Assembly (NCBI GenBank): GCA_001986395.2
Contig: MQVO02000002.1
Coordinates: 2,976,001-3,040,000 of the forward strand
Source: Irpex lacteus
Taxonomy: Eukaryota; Basidiomycota; Agaricomycetes; Polyporales; Irpicaceae
Direction: 5' to 3'
DNA length: 64,000 bases
Below, piece by piece: positions 1 through 20,163 of the stretch (position 1 is its first letter; the number at the start of each line of letters is the position of its first letter). Below the pieces are notes generated by a model. It was not told the origin of the DNA. It did not search any database and worked only from the letters and a program-made list of their open reading frames with translations. Made by a program: the position numbers and the translations under genes.

Positions 1-1
1 C

Positions 2-2069: not shown

Positions 2070-3025
2070 CTACCCCTTCCGCAAGGCGTCCAAACGAGCT
2101 TGTAGGGCATCTTCGTCTGACATACCGCCGCCGCTCCCACTTCCGCCTCCACCATGGTCTCCTGAGGGCCCTCCTTCCCCGAGAGCCACCGGTTGCCGGG
2201 CCTCGGTAAGCGGTGATGATACAGCAAGACCGGTAGGTGCGTCTGTGAGCTGCAAATACGCTTTTCAGAACTGATAATGATAGAGGCTTGTGAAAGATAT
2301 ATACCTGCTGAGAGAGGTCTACACCGATCTCGTCTAGAACCTGTTTAAGGATCTTATCGCCCTCTTCTTCCTCATCTTCAAGACCTTCGTCCATCACGTC
2401 GTCTACGGCATCTGACATCATCTCCTCTTTCATGTCCATGGTCGCGCTCTCCTTCTCGAACTCGTGCATGATGCGCTGGATCTGTGGAAGGTTTAAACCA
2501 CGGTTCATAGCCCCCATTGCCTGCGATGCGTAGATAATCTCGTCAGTATAATACTTCAGGACGAGCTTGATGGTGCTCACCCGCGTGGCCCCACGCATCG
2601 CGTCCGCCATTTGCTGATTACTTCTGAGAGTCTGTATCCGCAGTCCGACGGCTTGCAGCTGCGTGCGCATTTGATAGAACTTCTGCACGTATCGCCTGGT
2701 GCGAACGAGGTCTTTGGCCATAACCTTGCATGCATTCTACATGGTTTCAGTTCACCAACGCCATCCTTATTGCAAGAGACCGGAGGTGTACATACCATCT
2801 GGCCAGCTTTTGCACTTCGTTTAATATCGCCTACTAGCTTCTTCTCTTGTTGCTCGAGCTTTGTCCGTTCCCGGTCCAGCTCGCGCTGCGCCTTCGCGAG
2901 GGCTCGCTGGTGCTGGCGAAGTCGCTCCGCTGGAGTGACTGTACGCCCAAACAACGTATCCTGCGTATCAACATGAGTATATTATCGTCCACGTCGATGT
3001 AGGCAGCACTGACGATGATGTTCAT
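2070..3025 (-). CDS. VPS2: VPS2/DID4 (CHMP2-type) ESCRT-III subunit
   Basis: Charged multivesicular body protein of ESCRT-III, which acts with VPS24 and the VPS4 ATPase in membrane scission at endosomes. Seen: basic N-terminal helices with FGRTVTPAERLRQ, AKDLVRTRRYVQKF and RGLNLPQIQRIMHEFEKES, then an acidic stretch with DDVMDEG and VLDEIGVDLSQQ. The C-terminus DEDALQARLDALRKG is a MIM1-like motif for the VPS4 MIT domain. The length of about 230 residues fits the family. The start is a 12-nt first exon (3025-3014) reading MNII, joined across a GTCAGT...CGCAG intron to DTLFGRT. Without that join no ATG lies in frame, because a TAA precedes. Further introns interrupt the QM/NACK and ATR/AMG junctions and the segment after DLSQQ. 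The start codon is 101 bp from the divergent CUZ1 start. Confidence 0.92.
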
Positions 3026-3126
3026 GGTGGCTGCGGTACAAGATGCGAAGGCACTGATTGGGACTTGGCGTAGTCGGAGGTAATGGGGCAAACGCCCATA
3101 TCACTTCTTTACTCTGCACGACGACC
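3026..3126. promoter_or_regulatory. Shared divergent promoter, VPS2 / CUZ1-like
   Basis: Only 101 bp separate the two start codons, so both transcripts must begin here or inside the neighbouring gene. I see no TATA box or repeated motif. The bidirectional role is inferred from gene spacing alone. Confidence 0.4.
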
Positions 3127-4126
3127 ATGGATTTACCAGCAATTGGTGCACACTGCGCTCTGGACACTTGCAATGTCAATGATTTTCTTCCTATTCGATG
3201 CCGGTGCGATAGACTATTCTGCAAGGACCATATTTCGCCAGAAACACATACATGTCCTACCTTGCAGAATGAAGACAAATCGACCAATTCGGCGCCACAG
3301 TGGAAGCTGCAGCGATGCGCTGCAGACAAATGCAACGAGCCAAGTCTGGATGCATACGTCGTTGATGATTCTGACGCAAAGGATAGGCCACCAACTACAT
3401 GCGAGCGATGCAAGCGATCCTTCTGTGCAAAGTACGTATTTACACTACAGAACAAACTGCGTCGATACTTATTCGTCTTGTAGACATCGAACACCAGCTT
3501 CGCATTCATGTACTGCGCCACTTCCTGACCAGCCAACGCCTCGTAATGAAGCTGCAAAGGCTATCTTGGCCCAAATATTTCCTGCTAAAGCATCAGCTTC
3601 TTCGACCGCAACCAGTAGCACCTCTACAGTACCAGCTAAGAGGAAGACTCCTACCTCATCCAACCCGAGGAAAGCTGCACAAATTCGTCAAGTCGAGCTC
3701 ATGAAGATGAGACACCGTGCTCAACCCGCAGACCCCAGGGATAAGAATAGGAACGTGCCAATTGGTGAAAGATTGCACGTCAAAGTATCTGCAGAAGGCA
3801 AAGACGAAGAGAAATTATTCTGGTTCCAAAAGGTGTGGCAATAAGCTGCTATATTGCACGAACGGCGCACTGAGTATGTCTCGAACAGACGATGACCACA
3901 GGGAAAGCTCTGGACATCCTTGCCTCTCATGTAGGGATGTCTTCGGACAAAGCGGTATGTTATATCTTATCCGGCCAAAGTGCCCGTGAAAGCTCACTGC
4001 TAGTAGCCATTATATCTTCACAGAAATACGACCGCCTCAGAACAAGACGACAGCTTAGCACTTGAAAACGACAAACTGCTAGCAGATCAAATCGAAGATG
4101 GGACATCCCTCATTCTTCGTCATTAG
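3127..4126 (+). CDS. CUZ1: CUZ1/ZFAND1-type protein: two AN1 zinc fingers plus C-terminal ubiquitin-like domain
   Basis: Members of this family bind Cdc48/p97 and the proteasome and help cells survive arsenite and proteotoxic stress. Seen: an AN1 finger at residues about 8-48 (CALDTC, CRCDRLFCKDH, THTC) and a second at about 62-115 (CAADKC, CERCKRSFCAKH, SHSC). A basic Ser/Thr linker follows, then a ubiquitin-like region beginning ERLHVKVSAEGK. Introns: one inside the second finger (about 3432-3483), one after FWFQK, and one after SSDKA. For the last I chose the TAG acceptor that gives PLYLHRNTTASEQDD, because the CAG 17 nt downstream would end the frame early. The C-terminus is EDGTSLILRH, with TAG at 4124-4126. 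It converges with the first GNAT gene. Estimated length is about 280 residues. Confidence 0.85.
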
Positions 4127-4229
4127 CATTGCCCGCTCATCCCAGAAGATTACAATGCTACGTTCCATTGAATGAATCCTCCGCAGCTCATCGAAGCTTC
4201 CTCTGTACAAACACGATGGTGCGTACCGT

Positions 4230-5272
4230 TCACGCTGACAATGGCCTCTTCTCTGAAGGTTCTCTGACCATCTATTTCGACGCGTCAGGCCATGGTATTT
4301 AACTGCTCGGCGCTGCGAACAAGACGTACCAACTTGATTACGACGGGTTTCGTATGCCAATCCGGATCATCATCACCCATTAGAATGTCAGCTTCTGTGA
4401 CGAATCCCAATGAATTGTAGAAGCCCGTGTTGTTTACATTGCTGGACATGAGCCACGATGCACAGCCATGCGCATCGGCCTGGAAAGTACATTCAAGTAC
4501 CACTGACAGTTTTTATAGATTCGACGATGCATACCTGATCGGTGAAGCGCTTGATCAAAGCAGATCCATAGCCATGTCCTTGATGGTCAGGGTGTGTTGC
4601 CACTTCAGCAAGATACCACATCGACTCTTTTCTGTCCCCCAACACCTCCTCTACCGTCTTTTTGAACTTGGCCCCCCACTCCGCACCTCTCTGCCCATCG
4701 ATCAGCGTAGATCCCGTGTACGCAGATTGCGCTGCTTACTCGTTTTTGCTGCTCGCTCAGTATTCGAGGGGTTATCCATCGGCCGAAGAGCTTCATCAAG
4801 TGGCTGATGAGTTTGTCTATCGTGTCCTCTGTCTCTCCTGGTAGTTCACTTGCGGAGAATTGATCTGTCAGCTGACGGACCGCCTGGCAAGACTTTCTAG
4901 GTAGCTTACTAGGTGAGAGTGGCCAGGCTATCGCCGATCACCCATGTTTGTCCTCTTCTAACTGACTTATACAGAACGATCGCGATGTCCATCCGCCATT
5001 TCTTCTGCCAATGATCTGCTTTCGCATCCTAAGGTCGAAACAATGAGCAAAAAGACTCTTGTCACCATTGAATGACGAACTGACAGAGGTATCGCGGAAA
5101 TAGTGCATCACTGGGTCATGTTGCATCGCAGCCTCGTGCATGCGGGTAGCTTTGGGAACATCAACTGGTCGAGGTTGTGAGCGGGACAATCAATTATAAT
5201 CAGCGTAAAAAATCAAGTGGACGTACTAAGCCGAAGCCTGCGTATGGCGGGCACCCCATCTGTGGACTTCAT
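4230..5272 (-). CDS. GNAT-family N-acetyltransferase, tandem paralogue 1
   Basis: Predicted acetyl-CoA dependent acyltransferase; substrate unknown. The acetyl-CoA loop is seen as HPDHQGHGYGSALIKRF, with the Q-x-x-G-x-G/A signature, followed by SWLMSSNVNNTGFYNSLGF, the usual C-terminal GNAT strand. The N-terminal half carries IDVPKATRMHEAA, DPVMHYFRDT, HWQKKWRMDIAI and GQTWVIGDSLATL. All of these recur in the two paralogues, and that comparison fixed the splice sites. The start MKSTDGVPAIRRLRL is at 5272. The last exon is MVREPSEKRPLSA, reached through an intron after VVIKL; reading through would instead add an unconserved tail. Length is about 240 residues, with no signal peptide. All exons are open, so the gene looks intact. 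Confidence 0.82.
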
Positions 5273-5781
5273 CTTCGTGAAACTCGTAGTTAGGAATGAT
5301 CGGGGCTCAAGTTTCACGAAGTTCTTGAGTATAAGACAATGGCAAGACATCACTCCTATATATCAATCCACGTCCCAGGTACCGCGCTGATACGCAGCAG
5401 CGCAGCCATGTAATGCTACTGCGGCCATCCATCATGTCGACCAGTGATTCTGGAGCACATGTTGTGTCTGTCTTTCATAACCTACCGCGTTATTGACTTG
5501 ATTGCGCAGTCTTGTCTCGAGTGTGTTACAGTCCACAATTTGTTGTGAGTACCTCCGCAGTGCATGTCAATGGTGTTGTATTGCCGCAACTGAGGCGACT
5601 GAATGAAGAGCGTCCTCTGATCTAATAGAAGCGCACCTGCAGGCAAGACAGAATGGTGCTGCTCACGTTGAAGCTCACTCTGGAAGCTCACTGTTTCGTG
5701 TTGTATTGCGGACATATTCCGCGCTTGGTAGTAGCTGCCCTTGTACAGTGCCGACCCTGCTAATACGACGGTACGCCCTGT
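5273..5781. other. Spacer between GNAT paralogues 1 and 2
   Basis: It contains the upstream region of paralogue 1 and the downstream region of paralogue 2. I see no conserved coding segment, tRNA or repeat in it. Confidence 0.5.
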
Positions 5782-6819
5782 TCACAGCGAATAAACCGCC
5801 TTCTCTGGGACTTCTCTGATCATCTGGTCTCGAATGTTAGACTTCATGTCATCTGTACTATGAATATGACGCACTATCTTTATGACGACGGGTGGCGCAT
5901 GCCAACCAGGATCGTTGTCGCCCAATAAAACGTCGGCTGCCGTCATGAAACCCAACGAGTTGTAGAAACTCGTATTGTTTATGTTGCTGGACATGAGCCA
6001 CGATGACCGGCCGTGCGCGTCGGCCTGAACTATTCGTCAAGATAACAGGTTACAGGATGCACAATTCACGGTCCTTACCTGGTCAGTGAACATTTTTACC
6101 AGCGCAGATCCGTAGCCATGTCCTTGATGGCCAGGATGGGTCGCCAGTTCAGAGAGGAACCACATCGGGTCTTTTCTGCCTCCTACCGTCTCCTCTATAG
6201 CCTTCCTGAACTTCAATTGCCACTCCGCGCTTCTCTATTCACCACTCAGTACTCAGCAAAGGTTAATTGGCAGCGCATCACACTACTTGCTCTTTTTTGT
6301 TGCTTGGAATACAGTCTTGGAGTTATCTTGCTGTCAAAGAGTTTCATCAGGCGAGTGATAAGCTTGTCAAGAGCATCTTCCGTCTGCTGAGGTAACTCAC
6401 TTGTCGCGGGAAATATGGCGATTCAGCAGCAGAGCAGAACAAAGGCTAGAGTGAAACTTACTATGTGAGGGAGGCTAGGACATCGCCTACCATCCATGTT
6501 TGTCCTCTTCGAACCGACTTATATAGCTGAATAGCAAGGTCTAATCGCCATTTCTTTTGCCAATTATCTCCTTTGGCATCCTAGGTTCATAGCGTGAGTA
6601 TGCATCCGACTCTTGCATCATACAGGAAAGATTGACAGGCGTATCGCGAAAATAGTGAAATGCAGGGTCATCTTGTAATGCAGCCTCCTGCATGTACACG
6701 GCCTTAGGAATATCAACTATCGGAGGCGATGAGTATGATGATAGTAAACCAAAATCAAAAGTAGATCTACTCAGCCGTAGTTTTTGTACAACAGGTATAC
6801 CATGCTTTTCCAAACCCAT
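5782..6819 (-). CDS. GNAT-family N-acetyltransferase, tandem paralogue 2
   Basis: Same architecture and intron positions as its neighbours. The start is MGLEKHGIPVVQKLRL at 6819; the intron then splits an Ile codon ahead of DIPKAVYMQEAA. Later exons give DPAFHYFRDTP, WQKKWRLDLAIQLYKSVRRG, WMVGDVLASLT, ELPQQTEDALDKLI and the acetyl-CoA loop HPGHQGHGYGSALVKMF. SWLMSSNINNTSFYNSLGF and the terminal exon MIREVPEKAVYSL follow. The intron after KQQKR begins GCAAGT where paralogue 1 has GTAAGC, so it reads as a GC-AG intron ending at GAATAG. If that intron were not removed, the frame would break before the catalytic domain. About 240 residues. Substrate unknown; probably cytosolic or nuclear, since no targeting signal is seen. 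Confidence 0.8.
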
Positions 6820-7195
6820 AACTGCCAGAAGGTGTGAGTTCAATGTAAGCAGGTAACTAGAGCACGTACATACTTCAACCAAACTGCGCGCCACGAACTC
6901 TCCGATCTCACGCGCACTAGTGCCGTGGCACTGTGTTCGAATGATGAGACAAGCTGTTCTAGCTTAGTCCCCGATGTTGGTAAGCTTTGGCAAGCACTGT
7001 AGAGTATGTATTGACAGAGGCATTCTGATCACCCTGTCTTTTATGAGGGAAACTCCACAAAGTACTCCGAGAGCACTCAAGCATCACTGATACTTGTGGC
7101 AATCCGAGCCTTCTCTGTGCAGGCAGCATACGAATCGCATGTTGGGAACGAAATATTCAACTCCGTAACGAATACCATGCAACATCACTCCGTGT

Positions 7196-8262
7196 CTAAA
7201 CTTCCGCGAGCTGAATGAAATTTTCTGAATGCTCCGTAGAACCCATTTTCTCCGGCACCTCTCTGACCATCTTTAACGAGAGTAAGCACACAGGGAACCA
7301 TGTGAATCTGTGAATCACATACCAAGCTGACTACGACAGGAGGTTTGCTCCAATCGGGATCCTCGTCGCCCAAGCTAACCTGTGCTTTGGTGACGAAGCC
7401 AAGAGAGTTATAGAAGGCCGTATTGTCAATGTTACTGGACAGGAGCCACGAGGCACGACCGTGTGTGTCTGCCTATGCGGAACGTCAATGGCAATCTTAC
7501 AATCACTTAAATCAGCAGAGACTTACAAATGAAGTCAGCAGTCTTGCCAGTGCGGATCCATATCCATGGCCCTGATGTTCTGGTGATGTCATCAGCAATT
7601 CAAGGCAATACATTGTTTTCGCTTCCTCTCCAAGAGTGTCTTTCAACATGCTGTCGAATTTAGCCATGCATTCATCGCGGCGCTGTCAATACGATGAGAG
7701 TTAGATTATTTTGACGTCGTAAGTAATAATTGCTCACCCTCAGTTGAACTTCGCTCAGAATCCGCTGAGGGACGTATCTTTTGTATATGGACCAAACGCG
7801 GTCAAGGACTTTATCCGCAATATCTTTGGCTTCATCTGCTGGCTCACTGAAATGAGTCAGCATCGACGTCGTGGGAATGATGATAAGCTGGATTCTTCTG
7901 ACTATATCATTACTGCAAGAACATCTCCTACAGTCCACGCCTTGCCTTTGCGCACGGCGGCGGCGAATTGCACGCCCATGACGATTCTCCATTGTTTTGC
8001 GTAATAATTCTTGCTCGGCTCCTAGAGTCATTATGATGCTGGTTAACGATAGACATATAGAGTACCTGTATGTGCACGCACCGGTGTGTTGCGGATGTAA
8101 AGCTGAAGGGGGTCGCGACTTAGGGCGCTCTCGGTTGCGCGTACTGCTCGAGGAACTTCACCTATGGAAGATTCATCCAGTGTCAGAACTAATTATCCGG
8201 GAAACTATACAGATTGACTCACTGATGCGAAGTTGGCGAATTTTCTGTCCAATCGGCGCCAT
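7196..8262 (-). CDS. GNAT-family N-acetyltransferase, tandem paralogue 3 (most diverged)
   Basis: Third copy of the GNAT repeat. The start is MAPIGQKIRQLRI at 8262. Paralogue-guided splicing then gives EVPRAVRATESALSRDPLQLY, NYYAKQWRIVMGVQFAAAVR and AWTVGDVLAVMI. ADEAKDIADKVLDRVW, the acetyl-CoA loop PEHQGHGYGSALARLL and WLLSSNIDNTAFYNSLGFV follow. The last exon MVREVPEK... ends with TAG at 7196-7198, reached by an intron after VVVSL. The catalytic half is well kept and the N-terminal half is much more diverged than between copies 1 and 2. This suggests copy 3 split off first, followed by a later 1/2 duplication. All exons are open. Confidence 0.78.
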
Positions 8263-8892
8263 AATTGGAGAATCGGAACGTCAGTGAAATGGGTCTCGGT
8301 TTTCACGCTGTCTTGGAAGAGGGAGAGATAATCTTCGAACGGCGAAAGACGTACGAGGAGCACTTGGAAGATTGTCCGACGAGCCAAGGTGCCCCATTCA
8401 CGCTGTAGCTTTTGTTATCTTCGGTAAGATGCGCAGCTTAGTTCTTAATTTAACACTGAAGGGCCGCAGCGTAGTCTCGACCCAAAGATACATAATACTG
8501 CATCTACTGCGAGGGTGCTTAGGCTCCACCAAATACAATCGACGTGTTCAGTGCTCCGTGCGCAGCTAGAAGTCATGTAGCAGGAACGTCCGACCCGGAT
8601 ATATCATATCTGTCACGTCAGCTGCAATTGTTGAACGCTTGAGTCCGCTGCGCAACACGATATCAATACAAATGTATGCCTAAATAGAAGAGAGAGTATC
8701 CGATACACACATTCATGTTTCCCAAGGAGTCTTTCATGCCTGAGCATATAAAGTTGAGAGTCTGCAGAATCCAGATAGACGCGCTGAAACGAGCAAGCGC
8801 TTATATACACTCCCAACCCTCCGCACAAATCTTGACTCCTCTGGCATCCCTTCGTTGATAACAATAAAAATTATTCAAGTCGACCAAAAATC
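8263..8892. other. Gene-free stretch upstream of GNAT paralogue 3
   Basis: No ORF here has family-like sequence or splice structure. It must hold the promoter of paralogue 3. Nothing else is evident before the tRNA. Confidence 0.5.
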
Positions 8893-8995
8893 TGCCCCGG
8901 AGAGGGTCGAACTCTCGACCTTCCGATATCCTATTAATTGCAGTTTTCGCCGCGAAATAACAGTCGGACGCTGTAACCAACTTAGCCACGGGGCA
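8893..8995 (-). tRNA. tRNA-Asn(GTT) with a 30-nt intron
   Basis: The reverse strand folds as a complete cloverleaf. The 7-bp acceptor stem TGCCCCG/CGGGGCA is perfect, and the D-arm has GGTT in its loop. The anticodon stem is TCCGA/TCGGA, and the T-arm GAGAG/CTCTC closes a TTCGACC loop. The anticodon loop CTGTTA reads GTT, for asparagine AAC/AAU codons. A 30-nt insertion just after position 37 sits where eukaryotic tRNA introns are always found. The mature form is 73 nt plus the CCA added after transcription. Confidence 0.93.
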
Positions 8996-9692
8996 CATGT
9001 GAGAGCGCTTCCGCAAATCCGATATCTCCGACCAGCTATCAAGCGCTCGTTCATGGGGGTCGAAGCCAGCTTCGATTGAATTGCAACTTCCACCCCAACT
9101 ACTACCTATGAATCTCTGACATGAATCAAAGCCGGGCATGCTTGCGCTTGTTGCGAACAGCATAGTATCAGCTCCTTGAATTTACTGTAAGTATTGACAT
9201 CATGATAACGCTGTGTCCAACAACTTGATTGGCAGTTGTACACCACAGGTATTCCTCTCGTTGTTAGTGTCATATCTAGAGAGTTGATTTATCACAAATC
9301 TGCTATCGATTTGATAGAGCAGAACCAGGATGTTACTAAATCGCCACTTTGCTCTCTGGTCGTTGTATGCGAGGTAAGATATCAATATGCAGCTACTCAT
9401 CGTCCGCCTGCAGAGCATCATGGGAACTTTGTCCTATGCAACGTCGCATCTTTGGCTTGAATCTTGACACGGTATCGGTGGTGCTCGATGGATGTCGAAC
9501 GAAGCTGATTTGGTCCTACAGCGACGGGCATCTATGACTATAGTGAGTACTCCATTATGCCAACCTCGAATAGTCGATGTGCCTTTTGTTCTCTGATACG
9601 CATCATTCATAACGCAGCTAATATAACTATCAAGAGGTAAAATGATCGTGCCTAAATCCAGCGGTAGCTAACACCATCGAGAAACTTCTACT
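8996..9692. other. Gene-free stretch between tRNA and the secreted-peptide array
   Basis: AT-rich DNA without a credible ORF. There is no copy of the array's palindrome and no recognisable repeat. Confidence 0.5.
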
Positions 9693-9738
9693 ATATAAGT
9701 CTTTGATGAGGAGGCATCGAAGAGCAGAGCCGGCTCTC
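9693..9738 (+). promoter_or_regulatory. Array promoter 1: TATA box plus AGAGCCGGCTCTC
   Basis: TATATAAG begins at 9693, and the 12-bp perfect palindrome AGAGCCGGCTCT begins at 9726, 33 bp downstream. A probable leader intron (9773-9821) follows before the ATG at 9837. The same arrangement precedes all members of the array. Confidence 0.75.
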
Positions 9739-9836
9739 CATTCCACCCTAAGCCATACCACCCAATCCGATAGTATGTAACTTCAGGATTTCCATACAAT
9801 GTTGCTCACGCGGGCTTACAGATAACGATCTCAGCA

Positions 9837-10142
9837 ATGCAGACCTATATCTGGCATATCCTTCTATTCATTGCTACTGTTATGCTCCTTCGCCCTGGAA
9901 TATCGACCACGAACGCCTCACCGCTCTCTGTTCAGAGAAGTAATACTTCAGCTGACAATACCAGTGCTCCAAATCCCTCGCCATCTGTGCCGGGGCCCGG
10001 AAATGCATTTAGTGGGGCCCTCAACGATGGATCTTTCCAACGGTGCGTTTCTCGCATGGATGTTCATGGACCTGTGGACCTGACTAACCATGTTTCCAGC
10101 TTTCGTCACGGGTTTTCTGGTGGGTTCAAAGGATTCCGCTAA
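9837..10142 (+). CDS. Small secreted protein, array member 1 (82 aa)
   Basis: Exon 1 is 9837-10042 and exon 2 is 10100-10142; the coding intron is phase 2. An N-terminal signal peptide (hydrophobic stretch IWHILLFIATVMLL) ends near NASPLSVQR. This is followed by a Ser/Asn/Pro-rich segment and the core NAFSGALNDGSF. The terminal exon adds RFRHGFSGGFKGFR, the longest and most basic tail of the family. There is no cysteine in the mature part and no CaaX box. I do not recognise the family. What links it to the other six genes is the signal junction, the core, the intron phase and the promoter element. It may be a secreted peptide or its precursor; no function is claimed. Confidence 0.68.
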   Translation: MQTYIWHILLFIATVMLLRPGISTTNASPLSVQRSNTSADNTSAPNPSPSVPGPGNAFSGALNDGSFQRCVSRMDVHGPVDLTNHVSSFRHGFSGGFKGFR

Positions 10143-11023
10143 AGCACCGGAGAGATCTTACGGTTAGTTGTCGACCGCACCATAATTTTCTGCTAGCTTA
10201 CATGAGATCCAGTCGTAAGCTAGTTCATAGAAGTTGCAAGCTGGACACACTATGGTGGACGAATATGCGAGAATTACATGAAGTTCGCTATTTTGAAGTT
10301 CTAGCAGCGCCATCGTGTGTATAAGCTCAGCATCATCTGCGTCCGTCTGTTTGCGGTTTCGTTGGACGGTAAAGCACGCCCTATACAACTGTTTACACTC
10401 AATTTATTGATCCCGACAACGAAATTGCTAATAACCATCGTCGCACGGTTCACCATTAAGTGGGAGTAGAAAGCTATGAAGAGCGGTTTCTATTTTTTAC
10501 GAACAAACTGTGCATAACTGCTGGTCGCGCCGTCAGATCTCTCCGTCTTAGATCATTCTCTTGACGAGGTCGAATGTATGTGTTTTACTTGTGTTTCGGT
10601 TCTTTCGCTGTTTACATACGATTCAATCCCCTTCAGATCCACCTTACTAGCACCAGTGTATGCGCCACTTGAGCGAACTTTCTCTATGGTCACATTAAGC
10701 GGTACGTGATGATTGATAATCGTTTTGTATTTTACTGACGTCGTGAAGGCATCTATTTTTGACTCCCTGCTCACAACAGCCATCACAACTATGATGGTCA
10801 TCGATAGGCATACAGCACAGGACCTGCTACGAAACGGAGGAGTAGGTATATGCTTCTCGTCTCACAGTGACACTGAGCGCGTCTAGTGCCCATTCGCTCG
10901 CGCCTTGCGCTTCGATGCACTCGTATTCACAATCACCTTCGTTACAACACCATCAGATGATCCAATGGATGTGGATCCCAGGTCGGTGCCGTTCATCCAC
11001 AACGCCTTCTATCCTTAGGAGAA
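10143..11023. other. Array spacer 1-2
   Basis: No additional promoter palindrome and no family core motif are seen. A minus-strand ORF at 10553-10801 has no recognisable features and is not called. Confidence 0.5.
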
Positions 11024-11073
11024 TATAAAAACATATGAGTTGTTAATCCTGCACTGAACATGAGCTGGCTCTC
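11024..11073 (+). promoter_or_regulatory. Array promoter 2: TATA box plus TGAGCTGGCTCTC
   Basis: TATAAAA is at 11024 and the palindrome-like element is at 11061-11073, 37 bp downstream. It is the copy with the longest spacing and has T in place of the first A. A leader intron (about 11116-11174) separates it from the ATG at 11210. Confidence 0.72.
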
Positions 11074-11209
11074 GTCCATTTCTCTGCAAACTCACCCATC
11101 AATACTACTCTCGAGGTCAGTAAACAGCATCAGTAGAAGTTGATTCATTCGTCTCATCTCATTCACATTTGCAGGCGATAGCGACAAAGACACACTAGGC
11201 TCCTCGCAA

Positions 11210-11490
11210 ATGCCTACTTTGATGATCGGTGTGACCGTCTTTTGGACCGTATTGCAAGTTGCTTGTGGCTCGCCCGTACCATCAACATGTTGCGATCCCG
11301 AGGCTACTGGCATATCGAAACTAGCCAGCCCCTTTGGCGGACCTGTAGACAGGCTGAACCCTGAGATCTTCCCGTTCTTTTACCAGTACGTCCCTAAAGG
11401 ACTTCCGCTACACTGGGAGCAACTTCGATCTGCCATACTTATACTCATGCTGGGGATTTAATTTACAGTTTATTATTTGGGACGCCGTGA
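11210..11490 (+). CDS. Small secreted protein, array member 2 (65 aa)
   Basis: Exons are 11210-11385 and 11469-11490, with a phase-2 intron of 83 nt. The signal peptide MPTLMIGVTVFWTVLQVA is followed by the GSPV junction shared with member 4. The core is SPFGGP and the tail is FPFFYHLLFGTP. This is the shortest and most diverged member, and the only one with cysteines (an adjacent pair) in the mature region. Placement in the family rests on its position, promoter, intron phase and SPV junction more than on the core. Function unknown. Confidence 0.6.
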
Positions 11491-12357
11491 TGAGATATAC
11501 TTACCTTGATACTATCACACGAACGCGACGCTGCGCATTCCGTATTGGTGTGCATTTGTTCAACTACTTCGATCTCTTACTTCATTGTGTCATAAATTCG
11601 ATGAGTTGACACCACTGGAACAATATTAGGTTCTCTGATGGACATGCAAAGTAAATTTCACTAAGACCAAGCAGCCTGTGAGGTCACTATGCACAGTGTA
11701 CTACTGAACGGTCCAGAAGACCAAAGTTCGTGAGGCAAGATGATCCAGACGTACCCCTGGGGCTCGCAAGAGGCGTACCCGCCATATTGCTACTACCACG
11801 ACTGATGCTGCCGTAACTCAAATAATGGTTCAAAGGAGCCCTGCCAATGAGAGAAGCTATGATCCTTGTATGTGTCCATGGATCATCTTGTACGCTCGCT
11901 ATCCTTCTAAGAACTGCTTACTACTGCGTCCTTGATATCCGAGTCGTTTCTAGATCATGAAGCGCACCCAGTCTTACGAACATGCTCAGCAACGGACACT
12001 GCCAGTTCATCTTCCATGGCGGCATGTACTGCCCGAGCCAATTGCCCGAGTCCGTGACCACGCAGGTTACTTGTGAAGCCTAGTATAGCACTTACGCATT
12101 GACTTCCTGTTTTTGATCCTGCACCGCAGACCGGACGGCGATGAAGTGGCGATGACCTTCCCCCGGGTCTCGACTCCGCCTAACACCGGTGTGCCTCATG
12201 CTGATGATCTGCAACATCCAGCAAGGATGTCATGCGGGTGTTTGATTTACTAACATCATACTGAAGTACGCTGACATATTCATCATTGCACACAAGGCTG
12301 TAAAGGGCTGTAAGAGCCGAAATTTGAACCCTGTCTTCGGCTTCGGCATACAACACA
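11491..12357. other. Array spacer 2-3
   Basis: No gene is supported. The reverse-strand ORF at 12180-12443 overlaps promoter 3 and looks like chance. Confidence 0.5.
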
Positions 12358-12405
12358 TATATAAACGGGAGCCTGTGGCGCATTGGCATATCAGAGCTGG
12401 CTCTC
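12358..12405 (+). promoter_or_regulatory. Array promoter 3: TATA box plus AGAGCTGGCTCTC
   Basis: TATATAAA starts at 12358 and the element at 12393, 35 bp downstream. A leader intron (12433-12479, GTAAGT...CGCAG) precedes the ATG at 12505. Confidence 0.75.
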
Positions 12406-12504
12406 ATCTTGCCTAACTTTATCATCAACACGGTAAGTACCAATCAGAGCACTTTGCAGTTGCCTTACTGACCCCGCAGGGTGTATAGATACCACTACGA
12501 TACA

Positions 12505-12797
12505 ATGATATATTCCTGGGGCTTTACGACTTTCGTTCTTGCTTTTATCCTTGTCGCACAATACGAGTTATTGTTGGCAGATGCAGCTCCCGTAGCGCAG
12601 CCCGTTCAAGCGGCACCTCGAGGTCTGTTAGGCCTTGGGGGGCATAATATCGAATCGGGAATCCTAAATCCTTTTAGTGGGCCCCCTCCGGATTTTAGTT
12701 CGTGGTTCGAGCGTTTTTCCTCTGGGTAAGTGTCATGCATCCGTCAAGCAACATTGCGAATCAAGTTACTGATTTCACTAGCTTTCAGAACCGCTGA
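12505..12797 (+). CDS. Small secreted protein, array member 3 (78 aa)
   Basis: Exons are 12505-12725 and 12782-12797; the intron is phase 2 (GTAAGT...ACTAG). The start is the first ATG after the leader intron. The signal peptide (TTFVLAFILVAQYELLL) ends at ADAAPVAQPV. A Gly/Leu-rich stretch and the core LNPFSGPPPDF follow. The 16-nt terminal exon gives the end FSSGFQNR, so only five codons plus stop depend on correct splicing. No cysteine is present. Unrecognised family. Confidence 0.7.
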
Positions 12798-13042
12798 TGG
12801 GACAGACTGGGATTTACTAGGTGTTGTACTACGCGGACTGCTACGCATAATACAGCCCCTCTCCAAGTCAACTGGATGCCTTATCACAGCGAACACAATC
12901 TTGTACATATGTCTGCCGGACGAATATGGGGTACTACAACTGGACCGCAGAGACAAGGAGTTCGATCCGACTTTCGAAGATTTCATAGGTCTTCCTACCA
13001 CGCGGCAAGTAGTAAGCTTCACGCCAGATTAACGTTAGATAG

Positions 13043-13215
13043 TATAAAGCAGGCGAAAGACGCTGGATAACTCTAGAGAGCTGGCTCCTCATTGTCGCCC
13101 TGTGCTGGCATCACGTCCCGCTCACGTCAGCTTTTCTTATACTGCTTGAAGTTGGAGATGCTGCGGGGGACCTAAATTTTCAGACGGTATCTCAATTCCG
13201 TTCAGCGGAGCGTAG
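13043..13215 (+). pseudogene. Relic array member: orphan promoter with decayed core
   Basis: TATAAAG at 13043 is followed 34 bp later by AGAGCTGGCTCCTC (13077-13090), the array element with one extra C. There is no signal-peptide ORF behind it. At 13192-13215, however, one frame reads S-I-P-F-S-G-A-stop, and its DNA aligns with the NPFSGA-coding DNA of member 6. The core lies about 150 bp from TATA, against roughly 330 bp in member 6. Most of exon 1 therefore appears deleted. Confidence 0.55.
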
Positions 13216-13968
13216 GCCGCTCTCCCATGAATCTGAACAGCTCACGGATATGGAGAGCCGTCAAGACAGCCTACTTATCATCTATCATCTCGTATTCATG
13301 CTGCTGCATCCAGATTGGAGGTTAGAGATCAGCAACAGTCGTTTCCTCTACACGGGCACTGCTCCCATCAGGCCTTCAGGCTCCGAACTCCGAATGCGAA
13401 AAAGATGTGATCATACCTACAGCAAATGATGTACTGTAGTTATCTTCCGTGTCTTCTTGTTTTCATACTGTTGGCCTTGGCAAGGCTATACTGATCACTC
13501 GCCAGGCACTGCGAGTCGAACGTTCAGGCTGCCCATACGTGTTTACAATGGACGTGCCGACCATTCCGTCGTATCCGAGAGGGCGATCTCAACAATTGTG
13601 CAACTGATGTCCGGTTGGCTTGTGTACCTTCCCAAAGCACCGCGAGAGTCTGCTCTCCAACACAAGAGAGTAAAGTTGAATATATATTGGGCTATAGTGA
13701 CAACTCACCTCACTCAAGCAAGGTCGGTACAGCTTTAAGGAAATGGACCAACTGGCAAACAGAGCCTGCTATCCGATTTTGACGCGCCTCGGCATCGGAA
13801 GATGGTGCGAATCGTGTTGACAGTTCGCCGCATCCTGCGGTGCAAAGCATGTCGGGTGCCCAACATATCATTGTCAAACAACATTTGCTGTAAAGATTAC
13901 ACTGACGGTGTCGGGTAGCCATGAGACTTTGTCTCGTCTGCACCAGCAATGCGGCCAGTTCTAACTAG
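13216..13968. other. Array spacer before member 4
   Basis: No gene is supported. A weak GAGAGTCTGCTCTC at about 13642 resembles the palindrome but lacks an upstream TATA box. Confidence 0.45.
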
Positions 13969-14017
13969 TATAAAGGCAAACTGGCTTCGGGGTTGTCAAA
14001 ATGCAGAGCCGGCTCTC
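13969..14017 (+). promoter_or_regulatory. Array promoter 4: TATA box plus AGAGCCGGCTCTC
   Basis: TATAAAG begins at 13969 and the perfect palindrome at 14005, 36 bp downstream. A leader intron begins with GTGAGT at 14045; its acceptor is uncertain. Confidence 0.75.
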
Positions 14018-14121
14018 ATACTTGCGAATATATCGTCTACCAAGGTGAGTGTTCATTTCTTCTAAGCGAAAGCGTCAGTCTTATACGGCTTTAAAATTGA
14101 AAGATTACATACCGTGGCAAC

Positions 14122-14430
14122 ATGAAGCTCAGTTCCTGGACTAAACCAAGGTCCCTCACCTTCTTTTACATCCTAATTCTGCTGGAGAATGTGCATGTTG
14201 CGTTGGGCTCTCCTGTCGCGGTACGAACAAACAACTCGCTACGACATCTTAAGTTGCCGCCTGGTGTTTCCGACGCCCCAAACCCAGCTGAGGGCATAAC
14301 TAATCCGTTCAGTAACCCCCTTGGGGCTCTCCCTTCTGCCTATGATCCATTTGTTGGAACGTAAGTCTTCAAATAACGATTAATCAGACATCTTCGCTCA
14401 CATAAAGTCTTCAGCTTCGCCGGGCAATGA
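14122..14430 (+). CDS. Small secreted protein, array member 4 (84 aa)
   Basis: Exons are 14122-14360 and 14415-14430, with a phase-2 intron (GTAAGT...TTCAG). The signal peptide has the hydrophobic stretch FFYILILLENVHVAL and ends at GSPVAVR. The mature part has a Leu/Pro/Asn-rich segment, the core TNPFSNPLGALP and the tail YDPFVGTFAGQ. The second Pro-Phe block aligns with DPFVHG of member 7 and GPFFGG of member 6. No cysteine in the mature part. Unrecognised family. Confidence 0.7.
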
Positions 14431-14928
14431 TTCAAGTGCCTGTGAAGGATAGTCTAGACGTCGGATGGAGAATCTTAGGACATGCGGGGATCCCCTACCA
14501 TTGTGCGGCTGGATGGCGAGGCTCAGAGGGTATGCAGTTGAGTTTCACCGGCCTATCGAAAGTAATGGGAGAAGACGTCTTGGGCATGTTGGTGCTTACG
14601 TGTTTGGAAAGGTTATTACGCTCATCGAGTAGCATAGTCACTATCTCGACTTCAGATGTTATCAACATTGACGGTTGTGTGGCTACGTTCTGCAGAGCCA
14701 ACAGGAACGAGTGTTCGAAAGGCTGCGGCATATTAGTCATTATGAGTATGAATTCCAGCGAATCGCTCACAATAATGAAAGGAACTTGAAGTACGCAGTC
14801 ACTTACATCGCCTCCACCTGTTCGCCCCAGTTTTGACAGTGACCGCAGGGCCCGCCACTGACTGATAAGAATGATTTGTTGAAGCCTCGGTATTGGAGTA
14901 CCCCTTCATCGCAGCATTGAACGCGAGG
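14431..14928. other. Array spacer 4-5
   Basis: ORFs lie on both strands (for example 14427-14789), but none has a signal peptide or family motif. I see no supported gene. Confidence 0.5.
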
Positions 14929-14975
14929 TATAAAGCTGAGTGCAGAAAGAAGGAGGGACGGTAGAGCTGGCTCTG
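14929..14975 (+). promoter_or_regulatory. Array promoter 5: TATA box plus AGAGCTGGCTCTG
   Basis: TATAAAG is at 14929 and the element at 14963, 34 bp downstream, with G as its final base. A leader intron (15001-15057, GTACGC...TCTTAG) precedes the ATG at 15069. Confidence 0.75.
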
Positions 14976-15068
14976 AGATCTCCCTATAGAACATACCGAG
15001 GTACGCTATTAATTCTCATCAATATTATGTTTCTTAAGGAATGGCTGACCTTCTTAGAGATTAACACG

Positions 15069-15361
15069 ATGCTTCATTTCTATCACTTTGTCACCTCTCT
15101 GCTCGTTGCAGGCTTACTGCTATGCAACGTTTCGCCAACATCAGCCCTACCAATGCCCATGGCGGATACTTCTTCGGAAGCTTCTACCTCTAGTGTCATC
15201 TTGAAAAGGGCTATATTGGAGGGTGGTCACAACCCTTTCAGTGGCCCACCAGGCCTTTTTCCTGGTCTGCCGTGGTCTCGCGAAGAGTACGTGATCACAG
15301 AGCTTACTGTTATGAGACTTGTACTCAACGTAGATGATTTAGGCTCCAATACCTTCAATAA
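15069..15361 (+). CDS. Small secreted protein, array member 5 (about 78 aa)
   Basis: Exon 1 is 15069-15286; the proposed exon 2 is 15343-15361. The signal peptide FVTSLLVAGLLLCNVSP ends at SALPMPM. A Lys-Arg pair (LKRAILEGG), a possible Kex2 processing site, sits just before the core HNPFSGPPGLFPGLPW. The intron donor is phase 2 as in the other members. The acceptor is less sure, because the resulting tail REELQYLQ lacks the usual Phe. Without splicing, the frame would run on to about 15410 with an unconserved sequence. Unrecognised family. Confidence 0.62.
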
Positions 15362-15708
15362 CGCACATGTCTCGGTCACGTACGGCGTACGAGACGCTGG
15401 CTTGACATGACTGGCAGGTCCACACTTCATGTCAGCGAAGGCACCTTGTGCATTAGATAGTAGTGATCAATAGATCTAGAGGATGATATCAGTCAAACAC
15501 GAGATACATAGCAGTCGTGGGTACCATTGATACGTGCCTTAATTCCTGAAAATGTCCATTGGCCACCATTCGTAGAGGCTTTGAACGTTCCCTTTGAAGA
15601 TGTCAATGAGTGAAAGCCAGCGCTGGATGTCTGATCGACTCGATGATGCTCGGGGTTTTCGCAGTTTCAGGGAGTATTTTGTAGCCCATTTGTGTCACAA
15701 TCTTCAGG

Positions 15709-15756
15709 TATAAAAGGTGTACAATGAGTGTGTGTAGCAAGGTAGAGCCGGCTCTC
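15709..15756 (+). promoter_or_regulatory. Array promoter 6: TATA box plus AGAGCCGGCTCTC
   Basis: TATAAAAG begins at 15709 and the perfect palindrome at 15744, 35 bp downstream. The leader intron is about 15785-15833. The spacer before it (15362-15708) shows nothing else. Confidence 0.75.
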
Positions 15757-15854
15757 AACCTCACTTACACTTCTACTCACTAAAGTACGCTCCTTTCGGT
15801 GTCTCCGAGACTTTATTTTGATCCTTAGCGCAGATCGGACAGGCTGAACCTACC

Positions 15855-16168
15855 ATGACGAAAGACTGGCAAACAAGAGTCATAACGCTGCTCGTTACTG
15901 TCGTCCTCCTATGGCAATGTCAGTTAACCGCGGTGTCCGCATCCCCGGTGAGACTGCGTAGGGGTGACTCACCAAGTAATCCATTCAATCCGGCTTCGAT
16001 CAGGCCTCCCGGCCTCCCAAGTGATGGTTTCGGGGTCGGTAATCCATTCAGTGGAGCTTTTGGGACGCCTCCTGACGGAGCAGGGCCGTTTTTTGGAGGG
16101 TCAGTATTCTTCGAGCAGATTTTGAATGCCAATGCTTACGCGAGGATATGTCCAGCTTTGCACGATGA
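15855..16168 (+). CDS. Small secreted protein, array member 6 (85 aa)
   Basis: Exons are 15855-16099 and 16156-16168, the latter only 13 nt. The intron is phase 2 (GTCAGT...TCCAG). The signal peptide (VITLLVTVVLLWQCQL) ends at SASPVRLRRG, where RLRR could be a Kex2 site. NPFNPASIRPP is an extra core-like repeat, followed by the main core GNPFSGAFGTPP and the tail AGPFFGGFAR. This member shows the family's Pro-Phe-x-x-Gly-Phe-Ala-Arg ending most clearly. Unrecognised family. Confidence 0.7.
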
Positions 16169-16968
16169 CGCCTACTAGTGATGTCCGCGCTATCAGGCTG
16201 TAGAATATCCACGACAGAGCATTTTTCGGCATACTCATGATTTGTATAATATTTCGTTGACCACGGTGGAAGTATATGTACGGCTCAGTGATCTTACTAC
16301 CGCAGCCAGTTATGAAGCTGCAGGAGACGAGCATATACTTAAGATCCCTGGAAAATTGGATCAGAGTCAGTCGCGGTACATAGATTGATCCTTAGACTCA
16401 CTATTGACTCATTCCATGTAACTTCTAGTAAGTAATGACCACTGGTAGATATATCGCACACATGTGCGCATGCATCATGATCATGACGGTGTTGAGTGAA
16501 CCGTATACCAGCCTGAGTGTTGCCAAATCGGCACTACAGTACGGATCAGGCGCTCGGAAGAAGCCGTTGAACGTTGACCGTTGGCCTGAGGTCGGCATCA
16601 CGGTGATTGGGCCGCGCCATGATATGCACTGGCATGGCATTTCAGACAAGCCAGGCTGCCCTTGGAGAACGGATCTATACACAAGTGTTCCTAACTAATC
16701 TGGGAACGATTTTCGCGATGCATAAGTACGTAGAGTGTGACCTTCTTGGTATGCAATTTCTAATTTACTGTAAAGTGCTCTGTGTATCCCGAAAGGTCGA
16801 CCTTGACAGCAGGAGTTGATCATACCACTGTGTCGATGATGATTTGTGCACATTGCATATGTCTGATCGACGTGATTCAGACGTGGTACGTCGTACTGGA
16901 TCTCATATACTACACATTTGGCATACGCTCATCGTTGACCGCGTTGTCAAGCGCACTCGGGGTACCTG
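16169..16968. other. Array spacer 6-7
   Basis: A plus-strand ORF at 16435-16698 overlaps an equally long ORF on the other strand. Neither has a signal peptide or family core. No gene is supported. Confidence 0.5.
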
Positions 16969-17015
16969 TATAAAGATGGGTGCGCAGAAGACGTACCACG
17001 GTAGAGCCGGCTCTC
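16969..17015 (+). promoter_or_regulatory. Array promoter 7: TATA box plus AGAGCCGGCTCTC
   Basis: TATAAAG begins at 16969 and the perfect palindrome at 17003, 34 bp downstream. The leader intron appears to start with GCAAGT at 17045 (CAG before it), a GC donor, and to end at 17108 or 17117. Confidence 0.75.
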
Positions 17016-17121
17016 CAACGTTCCCTGATCTCTGGTGCAGACAGGCAAGTGACTATTTCCCCCAACAGATGGAGTACTTACGCGTAGTCTAGCCTGATCC
17101 TGACCTAGTTTGCGCAGAAAC

Positions 17122-17435
17122 ATGATGAGCAATCGCCTTTCCTTCGCGACATACCTCGTTACCCTTGTTTTCTTCTGGCAATACGCTCTGCTAGCGGTGT
17201 CAGCTCATCCTGTACCACCACGAGGAGAAAAACCTTCGGCGGGATCGCTCTTTGCACGGATTACTGGCCTCCGAGACCTTGGGACTATCTCGGATGGAAT
17301 ATTCAATGCGTTTGGGGGAGCATTCCAGGCATTGCCTGCCTCCGCGGATCCATTTGTGCACGGGTGAGTTTTTTGGGATTACTATGATGCTGCACGACTT
17401 ATTGAGGGACATTTAGCTTTGCGCGGGACGACTAA
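17122..17435 (+). CDS. Small secreted protein, array member 7 (86 aa)
   Basis: Exons are 17122-17363 and 17417-17435; the intron is phase 2 (GTGAGT...TTTAG). The signal peptide has ATYLVTLVFFWQYALL and ends at SAHPVPPRGEK. The core is FNAFGGAFQALP and the tail ADPFVHGFARDD, closely parallel to member 6. The similarity to member 6 extends into the signal peptide (LVT, FFWQ/LLWQ, AVSA). Members 6 and 7 are therefore probably the most recent duplicates. No cysteine. Unrecognised family. Confidence 0.7.
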
Positions 17436-17470
17436 GTAGTAGTACTTGTCCCATTACTGCACAAGATCTA

Positions 17471-18022
17471 TTAACAGAGAACGTTATGGAAAAGTCGCAT
17501 CGCCGGGCACATACTCTGACCCTGGCTCGACGAATACCAAAGTCTTGACCAACCCACCCAACCCACCCAAAAATTGAGCCGACCTTCATACAGAGAGTAC
17601 AATTTGCCTGGTACATAGCAATCAGGGCACTGCATGGTTATCTGACTAAGCCAGTACTGCCTCGGCCGTTCCTTGTATTCCTCTGAGTTGCTATGAATAC
17701 TTGTATGTGCTGTATTCGTTCCGAGTCTATGTTTCCGCGGATGATTCGAGAATCTTGGGCGCTTAGATATTTCAGCGTTGTTTCTGCTCACGTATCCCAC
17801 TGATTTCTTCACAACACCTGCATTGTTTCGCTGTTTTTCTTCACAACAAATCGATGAGATAAATTTCGCGTTGCTCTGGGGTGCTGACTGAGATGCAGAG
17901 GGCGAGGGAGGGTCGCTGAAAAAGGAAAGACACGTGTTGGGAGTGAATGTTCGGGCAGCTTCTATGAGATTCCAGTGACCGCGCCTCGGGCTCTTACCTA
18001 TCGCAGCCCAAACAACGCTCAT
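17471..18022 (-). CDS. Possible hypothetical gene, head to head with the DnaJ gene
   Basis: A 183-codon ORF opens with ATG at 18022, 97 bp from the DnaJ start. It has no recognisable domain. GT...AG pairs inside it would allow other spliced products, for example a donor after MSVVWAAI. A short ACCC-rich run occurs near 17555. Chance openness is possible, and it is listed only because of its length and divergent position. Confidence 0.22.
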   Translation of the reverse strand: MSVVWAAIGKSPRRGHWNLIEAARTFTPNTCLSFFSDPPSPSASQSAPQSNAKFISSICCEEKQRNNAGVVKKSVGYVSRNNAEISKRPRFSNHPRKHRLGTNTAHTSIHSNSEEYKERPRQYWLSQITMQCPDCYVPGKLYSLYEGRLNFWVGWVGWSRLWYSSSQGQSMCPAMRLFHNVLC

Positions 18023-18119
18023 TTTATTTCAACGCTGCCCTGCTTAAGCTTACGCACAAACCACCATCTCCTTCCCTCCCCTCTCCCCCTTCCCCTCTGC
18101 ACCTACTTAGCTGCAAAAC

Positions 18120-19634
18120 ATGGTCAAGGAAACGTACGTGCATCGTCTTCACACGATACCAAACACGCTTACTCATCCAATCTTCAGGAAATTCTACGAT
18201 CTCCTCGAGGTATCTCCAGATGCTTCAGAATCCGACTTGAAAAAGGCCTACAGGAAAAAGTAGAGTTGCACATAAAATCACCAAAGACTGTAGTGTGCTG
18301 ACCGTCGCTTGCAGGGCCCTTCGTCTACACCCCGACAAAGGCGGTGACCCCGAGTTGTTCAAAGAAGTCACACATGCGTACGTTTCCATGTGGCGTTCGC
18401 GCTCCTCCCGCAGTACACGCTGACAATTCTGCGCGCGCAGTTACGAGATCCTCTCCGACCCACAAAAGAGGAGTATTTACGATGCACGTGGAGAGGCAGG
18501 CCTGAGCGAGCAGGGTGGCATGGGTGGCATGGACCCACAGGTGCGTCAAACTTCCGATCAGAATCCCAGTCGGACGTTCCTGATGTCCGTTATCCAATCT
18601 TCTAGGACCTGTTCAGTCAGTTGTTCGGTGGCGGTGGCTTCTTCGGTGGTGGAGGTTCATCACGGCAGTCAGGTCCTCGCAAGACAAAGGATCTCGTCCA
18701 CCGTGTCACCGTTTCTCTCGAAGATCTCTACAAGGGCAAGGTATCGAAGCTCGCACTTACGCGGAATGTTATCTGTGGAAAGTGTAACGGCAAGGGTGGC
18801 AAGGAGGGTGCGGTCAGGGAGTGTGAGCGTTGCAATGGTCGTGGTATCCGTATCATCATGCGTCAAATGGGTCCGATGATCCAGCAGATCCAGCAGGCCT
18901 GTGACGAGTGTCAGGGTTCGGGCGAGATCATCAACCAGAAGGACAAGTGCAAGCAGTGTAACGGAAAGAAGGTGGTGTCGGAGAAGAAGATGCTTGAAGT
19001 CCACATCGACAAGGGCATGAAGGGTGGCCAGACGATCACTTTCCGCGGGGAGAGTGACCAGGCTCCAGGAGTGCTACCGGGAGATGTCATCATCGTCGTT
19101 GAAGAGAGACCGCACGAAAGGTTCACTCGCCAAGAAAACGACCTCACCACCGAAATCGAGCTCGACCTCTTGACGGCACTGGGCGGTGGACAGTTTGCTA
19201 TCAAGCATCTGGACGACCGTGCGTTGGTAGTGAACATCCATCCAGGAGAAGTTATCAAACACAGTACGTCTCTCGATCTCACTTCTTATATCGATTCCAG
19301 AATATTAACCGCACCGGTCACAGATGACATCAAGCGCATACCTGGCGAGGGTATGCCCTCACAAAGACATCATGAGCCCGGTGACCTTATCATCAAGTTC
19401 ACGATCAAGTTCCCCGACTTTATCTCCCCCGATGCCATCCCCCTGCTCGAGAAGGCCCTGCCACCGCGGAAGCCGCTGGAGAAGTTCAGCAAGTCGACGT
19501 TACTCGAGGAGGTCGAGTTGGTCGACGCCGACGCTCAGCAGCAGAGGCGCGCCGCTCATAGTCACGGAGATGCGATGGACGAAGACGACGACGGGCCAGA
19601 CGGCGAGCCGCGTGTACAGTGCGCGAACCAGTAA
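18120..19634 (+). CDS. YDJ1: YDJ1-type (class A) DnaJ/Hsp40 co-chaperone
   Basis: Stimulates Hsp70 ATPase activity and delivers clients to it in the cytosol. Seen in order: a J domain with LHPDKGGDPELFK (HPD intact), then a Gly/Phe-rich linker with FGGGGFFGGGG. Four zinc repeats follow (CGKCNGKGGK, CERCNGRG, CDECQGSGE, CKQCNGKK), then C-terminal substrate domains. The protein ends VQCANQ, a CaaX box fitting farnesylation, as in yeast Ydj1 (CASQ). The first exon codes MVKE plus two bases, and the next begins KFYDLLEV. One late intron (about 19265-19322) gives KHNDIKRIPGEGMP. About 400 residues, as is usual. The fourth zinc repeat ends GKK rather than GxG, which occurs in the family. Confidence 0.93.
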
Positions 19635-20163
19635 GCTGGGCATTTTCTCCGCCCTGGTTATCGCCACCCTCGCCACTGTCACCGCCGTCCTCGTTTCACT
19701 CACCATCGCTAGCTCAACTTCGCATGCATAGAGACATGTGTACGGACCATCATTCACCATCTCTCCTCCATTGGCATTGATCTCATCCCTCACGCATTCC
19801 CTTCTCCCGTGCATGTATCCTAAGTTGCTCTGTTGTGCTTGTAGTGTTTTCCGCCGGTCCTTTCATTCCTCCTACATACCTCCGCTCGTGGATCTGTCCG
19901 ATGTTGCTGTTGATACTTGCTGTTTGTGTCCCACACTCGCTACGTACAAGTACTGTTTTACTTATTTTTGTCCCGCAATCATATACACTCGTACGCACTC
20001 AAATTAGAGTTTCTTCCTACATGCTTTGTCATTACATTGTACAGAATATTATTGTGACATGGTACCCCAGAGAAAGAAATACGAGGATGTCCGACATTGT
20101 TATCGAAAAAGTTCGATATCTCTAACTCGTTGCTCTTGCAGAACAGACGAGCACTCAACGATA
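19635..20163. other. 3' flank of the DnaJ gene and of the convergent UPF0538 gene
   Basis: Pyrimidine-rich, AT-rich DNA typical of fungal 3' untranslated regions. ORFs here run in several frames with no family features. No gene is called. Confidence 0.5.

Follow-up and report, generated by a model that had tools for sequence, protein, structure and literature searches.

A tandem family of small secreted-type proteins with a shared core motif and a common promoter layout in an Irpex-type fungus

What small secreted proteins do in fungi that decay wood as saprotrophs has been called enigmatic (PMC6540522). In agaricomycetes, a small secreted multigene family has been described as Pleurotus ostreatus SSP1-6, which are similar to Laccaria MiSSP24 and whose identifiable conserved motif is the signal peptide (PMC5674062). 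KEX2-processed repeat proteins (KEPs), including the alpha-type pheromones and Ustilago Rep1, are secretory precursors of extracellular peptides in which XP dipeptides occur (PMC6339444). In the white-rot phlebioid fungus Phlebia radiata, candidate small secreted proteins form a predicted secreted class, and one of three routes used to select them took proteins of less than 300 amino acids (aa) with at least four cysteines (PMC6540522). Agaricomycete hydrophobins are also small and secreted and belong to expanded families (PMC3879219). In this study we analyzed a stretch of 64,000 nucleotides (C308:2976001-3040000, hereafter the window) from a genome of 44.3 Mb. It holds a tandem array of seven spliced genes, g1 to g7, which code for small proteins of secreted type and stand behind a common promoter layout, a TATA box followed by the 12-bp near-palindrome AGAGCYGGCTCT.

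At a little under even chances, we read the array as a tandem, duplicating and decaying, co-regulated family that would encode linear, mostly cysteine-free secreted peptides in which the signal peptide and the core are kept and the remainder varies. An earlier note on this DNA had described seven genes on one strand coding for proteins of 65-86 residues; all seven were rebuilt at that place on the + strand, between positions 9837 and 17435 of the window (Table 1). Three further members, C262a, C262b and C20, were found outside the window in the same genome. The ten genes have one layout in common. A phase-2 intron of 53-83 nt lies shortly before the end of each, and the small last exon behind it, with 13-43 coding bases including the stop, adds the tail (FAR, FAGQ, FARDD and FAV are among these tails). 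In the seven window genes, the exon before this intron carries the signal peptide and most of the mature chain. The second exon is the least certain part of the g2 model. This last-exon model agrees with the outside relative P0002, which was annotated by others and ends in GGFAR.

Membership was assessed with a leave-one-out profile hidden Markov model (HMM), which is independent of the core pattern described below. With the other nine members in the profile, the left-out member ranked first among 1081 sequences in all ten cases, the weakest being g2 with 14.4 bits versus 11.7 for the best decoy. The other 1080 sequences were 80 signal-peptide-like open reading frames (ORFs) from the window and the fetched loci (90 minus the ten with member exons) and 1000 shuffles of members. 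The earlier proposal of a tandem family of small secreted-type proteins is supported by this result. Chance ORFs were considered as well and rejected, since the promoters, the layout of the exons, the leave-one-out test and a relative from outside all agree.

C262b and C20 were found via the promoter element and encode signal-type proteins with the related cores NPFSGA and KDFGGP, respectively, and the core pattern together with protein similarity led to C262a, which adjoins C262b. Protein searches of the same genome with g6, C262b, C20, P0006, g3 and g4 as queries gave no member beyond these ten; a weak match on C14 (E-value 0.115) has internal stops. The core as a DNA pattern occurs at five places in the genome, three in the array and two on C262, none of them beyond the ten members, and once in the reversed control. 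Ten is a lower bound, as g1, g2, g5 and g7 were not among the queries and the search scores the best candidates only. Decay within the array is suggested by a broken eighth copy between g3 and g4, whose core remnant resembles g7 at 10 of 16 residues and contains an internal stop; the match is weak, with an E-value of 0.098 in a small search.

The seven window genes were identified from their proteins, independently of the element, and all of them, together with the broken copy, have the TATA box and then the near-palindrome, in g2 in the form TGAGCTGGCTCT. The element stands 33-37 nt after the TATA start in these seven genes (39 nt in C262b) and 94-137 nt from the ATG, and by eye a plausible intron lies between element and ATG in most genes. 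A full TATA box with a AGAGCYGGCTCT-like element precedes eight of the ten members, namely the seven window genes and C262b. Across the 21 pairs of window genes the element is 93% identical, versus 32% for the 30 nt before it, 31% for the 30 nt after it and 27% for the region from -200 to -60; TATA box, element and spacing have therefore been kept and the rest has drifted. The corresponding values are 92, 31, 30 and 26% when the relic, C262b and C20, all three found through the element, are added.

The combined pattern TATAAA-N20-45-GAGCYGGCTC has seven occurrences within the window, at the relic and at every gene except g1, which has TATATAAG, with a shuffle mean of 0.00. It occurs at nine places in the whole genome and at none in the reversed control. 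A total of 12 sites in the genome carry GAGCYGGCTCTC, and eight of them precede family genes, six in the array and two at C262b and C20. Near the other four (C1, C18, C170 and C185) no member was found by an HMM that held all ten members and served only for finding more. AGAGCYGGCTCT has 14 distinct places in the genome: six in the array, two before C20 and C262b, and six without a recognisable member. As judged from these counts, the signal of the element is its position beside the TATA box and family genes, not its rarity. Four of ten sites carry a T variant at sense-strand position 6 and none the mirror change, and because of this one-sidedness the element may be directional.

Other readings of the upstream regions were tried. 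An RNA hairpin at the 5' end is not supported, since folding energies are like those of shuffles in all seven genes (z from -0.91 to 1.00). No further shared upstream site emerged from shared 7- to 9-mers in the ten upstream regions, which were not above 30 first-order shuffles. The 12-mer CATGATCATGAT is common to three of these regions (g7, C262b and C20), above the shuffle maximum of two, but its distances are unequal; ATCATGATCATG lies upstream of the same three genes at about -123, -529 and -639 from the element.

Some element-like sites lie apart from the family. Four of the six memberless AGAGCYGGCTCT places form two pairs with like surroundings and appear by eye to be repeated sequence; the 12-mers of L026 and L028 (C58:1618756, C151:116335) and of L027 and L029 (C67:170147, C262:5668) sit in two different repeats without a family ORF. 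At the site with TATA box and element on C315 no family member was found. L021 (7863-7907, C262:245896) has a promoter-like TATA box with AGAGCCCGCTCT at site 7896 and no family ORF, and the gene downstream of it resembles a RecQ-type helicase by eye.

Signal peptides were predicted from hydrophobicity and one AlphaFold2 model. The N-terminus is hydrophobic in all ten genes (best 12-residue mean 1.97-2.85), and in the model of P0002, made from a 14-row alignment, the only helix covers residues 2-27, which correspond to the signal peptide; the rest has no secondary structure. The mean predicted local distance difference test score (pLDDT) of this model is 63.8, with block values of 45-52 after residue 30, and the predicted template modelling score is 0.31. 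All seven junctions of the type A/G-x-P-(V/L/M) listed in the earlier note were found (ASPL, GSPV, AAPV, GSPV, ALPM, ASPV and AHPV). With cleavage sites placed by hand, x-Pro stands at the presumed mature N-terminus in 10/10 genes, and the presumed mature chains have 36-58 residues.

The proposed N-P-F-S-G-P/A-like core recurs in all seven mature parts as [NSD][PAD]F[SG][GN][PA], a pattern chosen after the sequences were seen, and when these parts were shuffled 2000 times at most two of seven retained it. The ending PF..GFAR, which had been attributed to several members, is clear in g6 and g7 and near in g4 (PFVGTFAGQ); it is absent or altered in the other four.

Hydrophobins are characterized by a pattern of eight cysteines. 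Here the mature part has no cysteine in nine of ten genes and two in g2, the eight-cysteine pattern is found in none of the ten, and Pfam gave no hydrophobin match for the seven window proteins. There is also no CaaX box in g1 to g7, whose C-termini (GFR, GTP, QNR, AGQ, YLQ, FAR and RDD) have no cysteine four residues from the end. Cysteine counts and C-termini thus bear out the earlier statement that both features are lacking. The same counts distinguish the array from proteins taken by the cysteine route in Phlebia radiata, which requires at least four.

The mature chains consist to 35-58% of P+G+S+A and contain 3-7 aromatic residues. Together with the secretion signal, this composition would suit small surface-active peptides that coat the hyphal wall or the air interface in the manner of Ustilago maydis Rep1, the peptides of which act on the hyphal wall (PMC6339444). 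We consider such a function very improbable: neither a hydrophobin-like cysteine pattern nor repeats are present, and the kept core suggests recognition over bulk coating.

In another interpretation the proteins are precursors of signalling peptides processed by KEX2 and STE13, like ascomycete alpha-type pheromones or KEPs. They are of the secreted type, the hydrophobic N-terminus and the helix of the P0002 model would be compatible with a signal peptide as in KEPs, and the x-Pro start recalls the preference of STE13 for XP dipeptides (PMC6339444). The dibasic sites that had been put forward as possible processing sites do exist, as KR in g5 and RR in g6. However, [KR]R is present, once each, in only two of the seven window genes and none of the three others, and the RLRR of g6 reads RLHR in its Irpex lacteus relative. 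The XP dipeptide follows the signal peptide and not a KR site, and by eye there is no three-fold repeat, whereas the KEP pipeline asks for at least three motifs (PMC6339444). KEX2 processing is not supported by these sequences as a feature of the family, and the precursor interpretation is improbable.

Three protein searches yielded six relatives in all, P0001 to P0006, for which E-values were counted only from profiles not holding the protein in question. P0002 is the hypothetical protein BC629DRAFT_1478900 of Irpex lacteus (Polyporales, Irpicaceae), so far annotated as hypothetical only; it belongs to the same family as the array genes, with an E-value of 2.3e-16, and 98% of its length aligns to g6 at 69% identity. 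Through this protein, whose core equals that of g6 at 6/6 positions, homologues are present in at least one related fungus. P0001 shares 75 of 81 aligned residues with g7 (E-value 2.1e-22, g7 being in the profile). P0003 is g1-like (1.0e-9, with g1 in the profile); it looks unspliced, and its frame behind the intron differs from that of the window. On back-reading from the protein, a small intronic indel with the tail unchanged would explain this. P0004 contains the first exon of C20 unchanged, P0005 is C20-like (1.4e-6) and P0006 is C262a-like (3.0e-6). On the basis of these relatives the fungus would be an agaricomycete close to Irpex.

Library searches gave no convincing match to a known family, and the earlier note knew of none. 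With the homologues above, two of the three refuting outcomes named in that note thus did not occur. In Pfam, six of the seven window proteins had no match, and a below-threshold SRRM_C match of g6 (E-value 0.2) was set aside. Ten rows of an alignment without g2 gave nothing better than 0.059 in NCBIfam and PHROGs (an NCBIfam ExoX repressor, in one of the ten), and a profile without g2 gave as its best matches among PDB sequences a protein VIII chain (0.11), which we take to be an adenovirus protein, and an acid phosphatase (0.38); these were also set aside. The literature covered, with subscription journals mostly outside it, holds no recognisable description of the family or the element. Families of secreted peptides are in themselves already known; the family with the NPFSGP core is matched to none in the searched libraries.

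Irpex is a white-rot fungus, and a multi-gene secreted family in an Irpex-type fungus could consist of regulators of lignocellulose breakdown like Pleurotus ostreatus SSP1-6. The Pleurotus proteins have been reported to take part in the regulation of ligninolytic enzymes (PMC5674062, PMC10705924). By description and size, on which the comparison is based, the two differ: SSP1-3 have about 18 kDa and are highly similar to each other (PMC5674062), while the array proteins have 65-86 aa, are diverged, and show the NPFSGP-like core and the small last exon. We give this interpretation a low probability.

Comparison of members with their relatives shows where the sequences vary. Between g6 and P0002 the signal peptide agrees at 25/28 positions, the core at 6/6 and the rest at 26/40 with 10 gapped; for C20 and P0005 the values are 29/31, 4/6 and 13/29 with 5 gapped. 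In these two of five relative pairs a kept leader and a variable remainder are clear. For C262a and P0006 we found 24/32, 5/6 and 15/24 with 9 gapped, g7 and P0001 are near identical throughout (26/28, 6/6, 43/47), and g1 and P0003 allow a partial comparison, confounded by the unspliced prediction. Six paralogue pairs were compared in two regions, signal peptide and mature part, by the NG86 method. In 11 of the 12 comparisons the synonymous distance (dS) exceeded 1.5 or could not be estimated, the exception being the signal peptide of C262a and C262b (dS 0.32, nonsynonymous distance (dN) 0.29), and dN exceeded dS in none of the 12. The diversifying selection expected in the earlier note did not emerge from these data, with synonymous sites saturated or high and g7 and P0001 identical at 75/81 residues; it may stand as a hypothesis.

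Two features resemble the pattern of defence-peptide families: the signal peptide is kept and the remainder variable in the two pairs above, and the array has expanded in tandem and includes a broken copy. Antimicrobial or competition peptides directed against other microbes would fit this pattern. The mature chains, however, are not consistently cationic, and nine of ten have no cysteines. Their numbers of K+R and D+E are 5/2, 2/4, 3/3, 3/3, 3/5, 5/3 and 5/6 in g1 to g7, 1/1 in C262b, 7/6 in C262a and 3/5 in C20, a mixed charge. We consider a role in defence improbable.

Table 1. Promoters, coding sequences (CDS) and the broken copy of the array, in window coordinates.
Feature	Position	Strand	Parts	Protein (aa)	Core	End or site	Relative
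g1 promoter	9692..9737	+	TATATAAG from 9692; element AGAGCCGGCTCT 9726-9737				
g1 CDS	9837..10142	+	exons 9837-10042, 10100-10142	82	NAFSGA	GGFKGFR	P0003
g2 promoter	11024..11072	+	TATAAA; TGAGCTGGCTCT 11061-11072				
g2 CDS	11210..11490	+	exons 11210-11385, 11469-11490	65	SPFGGP		
g3 promoter	12360..12404	+	TATAAA; AGAGCTGGCTCT 12393-12404				
g3 CDS	12505..12797	+	exons 12505-12725, 12782-12797	78	NPFSGP		
Broken eighth copy	13043..13227	+	TATAAA 13043; element AGAGCTGGCTCC 13077-13088		remnant ~13180-13227		
g4 promoter	13969..14016	+	TATAAA; AGAGCCGGCTCT 14005-14016				
g4 CDS	14122..14430	+	exons 14122-14360, 14415-14430	84	NPFSNP	PFVGTFAGQ	
g5 promoter	14929..14974	+	TATAAA; AGAGCTGGCTCT 14963-14974				
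g5 CDS	15069..15361	+	exons 15069-15286, 15343-15361	78	NPFSGP	KR site	
g6 promoter	15709..15755	+	TATAAA; AGAGCCGGCTCT 15744-15755				
g6 CDS	15855..16168	+	exons 15855-16099, 16156-16168	85	NPFSGA	PFFGGFAR	P0002
g7 promoter	16969..17014	+	TATAAA; AGAGCCGGCTCT 17003-17014				
g7 CDS	17122..17435	+	exons 17122-17363, 17417-17435	86	NAFGGA	PFVHGFARDD	P0001 (close)

Two other features were seen in the window. A tRNA gene on the minus strand at 8892-8995 (Rfam RF00005, 52.2 bits) has an anticodon arm enlarged by about 31 bases and, by eye, the anticodon GTT (Asn); ARAGORN found none in the window, and a gathering-threshold Rfam scan of 1-20000 found none. Tandem acetyltransferase-like segments (HPDHQGHGYGSAL), presumably of GNAT type, lie on the minus strand at about 4200-8000, with two stretches 68.6% identical over 873 aligned positions, and one ORF of this region had no Pfam match.

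The shared promoter layout is seen directly in the DNA, and from it we infer the steps that would follow. The element would coincide with the transcription start or closely follow it, and there a shared factor would bind it as duplex DNA and switch the family on together in some condition. Signal peptidase would cut after A/G/T and release a linear chain of 36-58 residues starting with x-Pro, which would not fold stably by itself and would act outside the cell. Common contact could be made through the NPFSGP-like core and, in some members, the GFAR-like tail, while the remainder, differing between copies, would give each copy its own character. With low certainty, the products may be extracellular signalling or interaction peptides, directed to the same organism or to neighbouring ones, rather than enzymes or hydrophobins. 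Signalling or interaction comes first in our rating, and its rivals are coating, defence, KEX2-processed signals and the regulation of enzymes.

Several observations weigh against the proposed co-regulated family of variable peptides. The promoter layout is not universal, as C262a has no element and C20 has the element with TACAAAAG in place of TATAAA. Without regard to position, the element is not a rare one: in the genome GAGCYGGCTCTC occurs 12 times (9/3) versus 20 (6/14) in the reversed control, GAGCYGGCTC 156 times (83/73, with 100 of the 156 listed) versus 177 (87/90), and AGAGCYGGCTCT 22 times (13/9) versus 11 (6/5), palindromic sites being counted twice in this last case. The contrast between leader and remainder is not clear in three of five pairs (g7/P0001, g1/P0003 and C262a/P0006), and a variable remainder would also be expected from relaxed constraint, with dN/dS giving no selection signal. 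The P0002 model, from 14 sequences and of low confidence, makes the absent fold weak evidence, and the role is derived from the anatomy of the genes.

A bolder extension of the co-regulated family, unlikely in our view, would make the near-palindrome a dedicated element, anchored to the start site and bound by one regulator, that defines a regulon private to the variable secreted peptides. Irpex-like fungi would then possess a hidden system of peptide signalling or recognition, and most of its genes could be listed in a genome from their promoters. Very short, cysteine-free secreted proteins can escape cysteine-based filters, and the promoter element, the recurring exon layout and the core motif provide three handles by which genes of this kind could be located in raw DNA. 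A near-palindrome at a set position, common to a peptide family, would offer a ready target in the search for its controlling factor and for the condition in which the peptides are produced.

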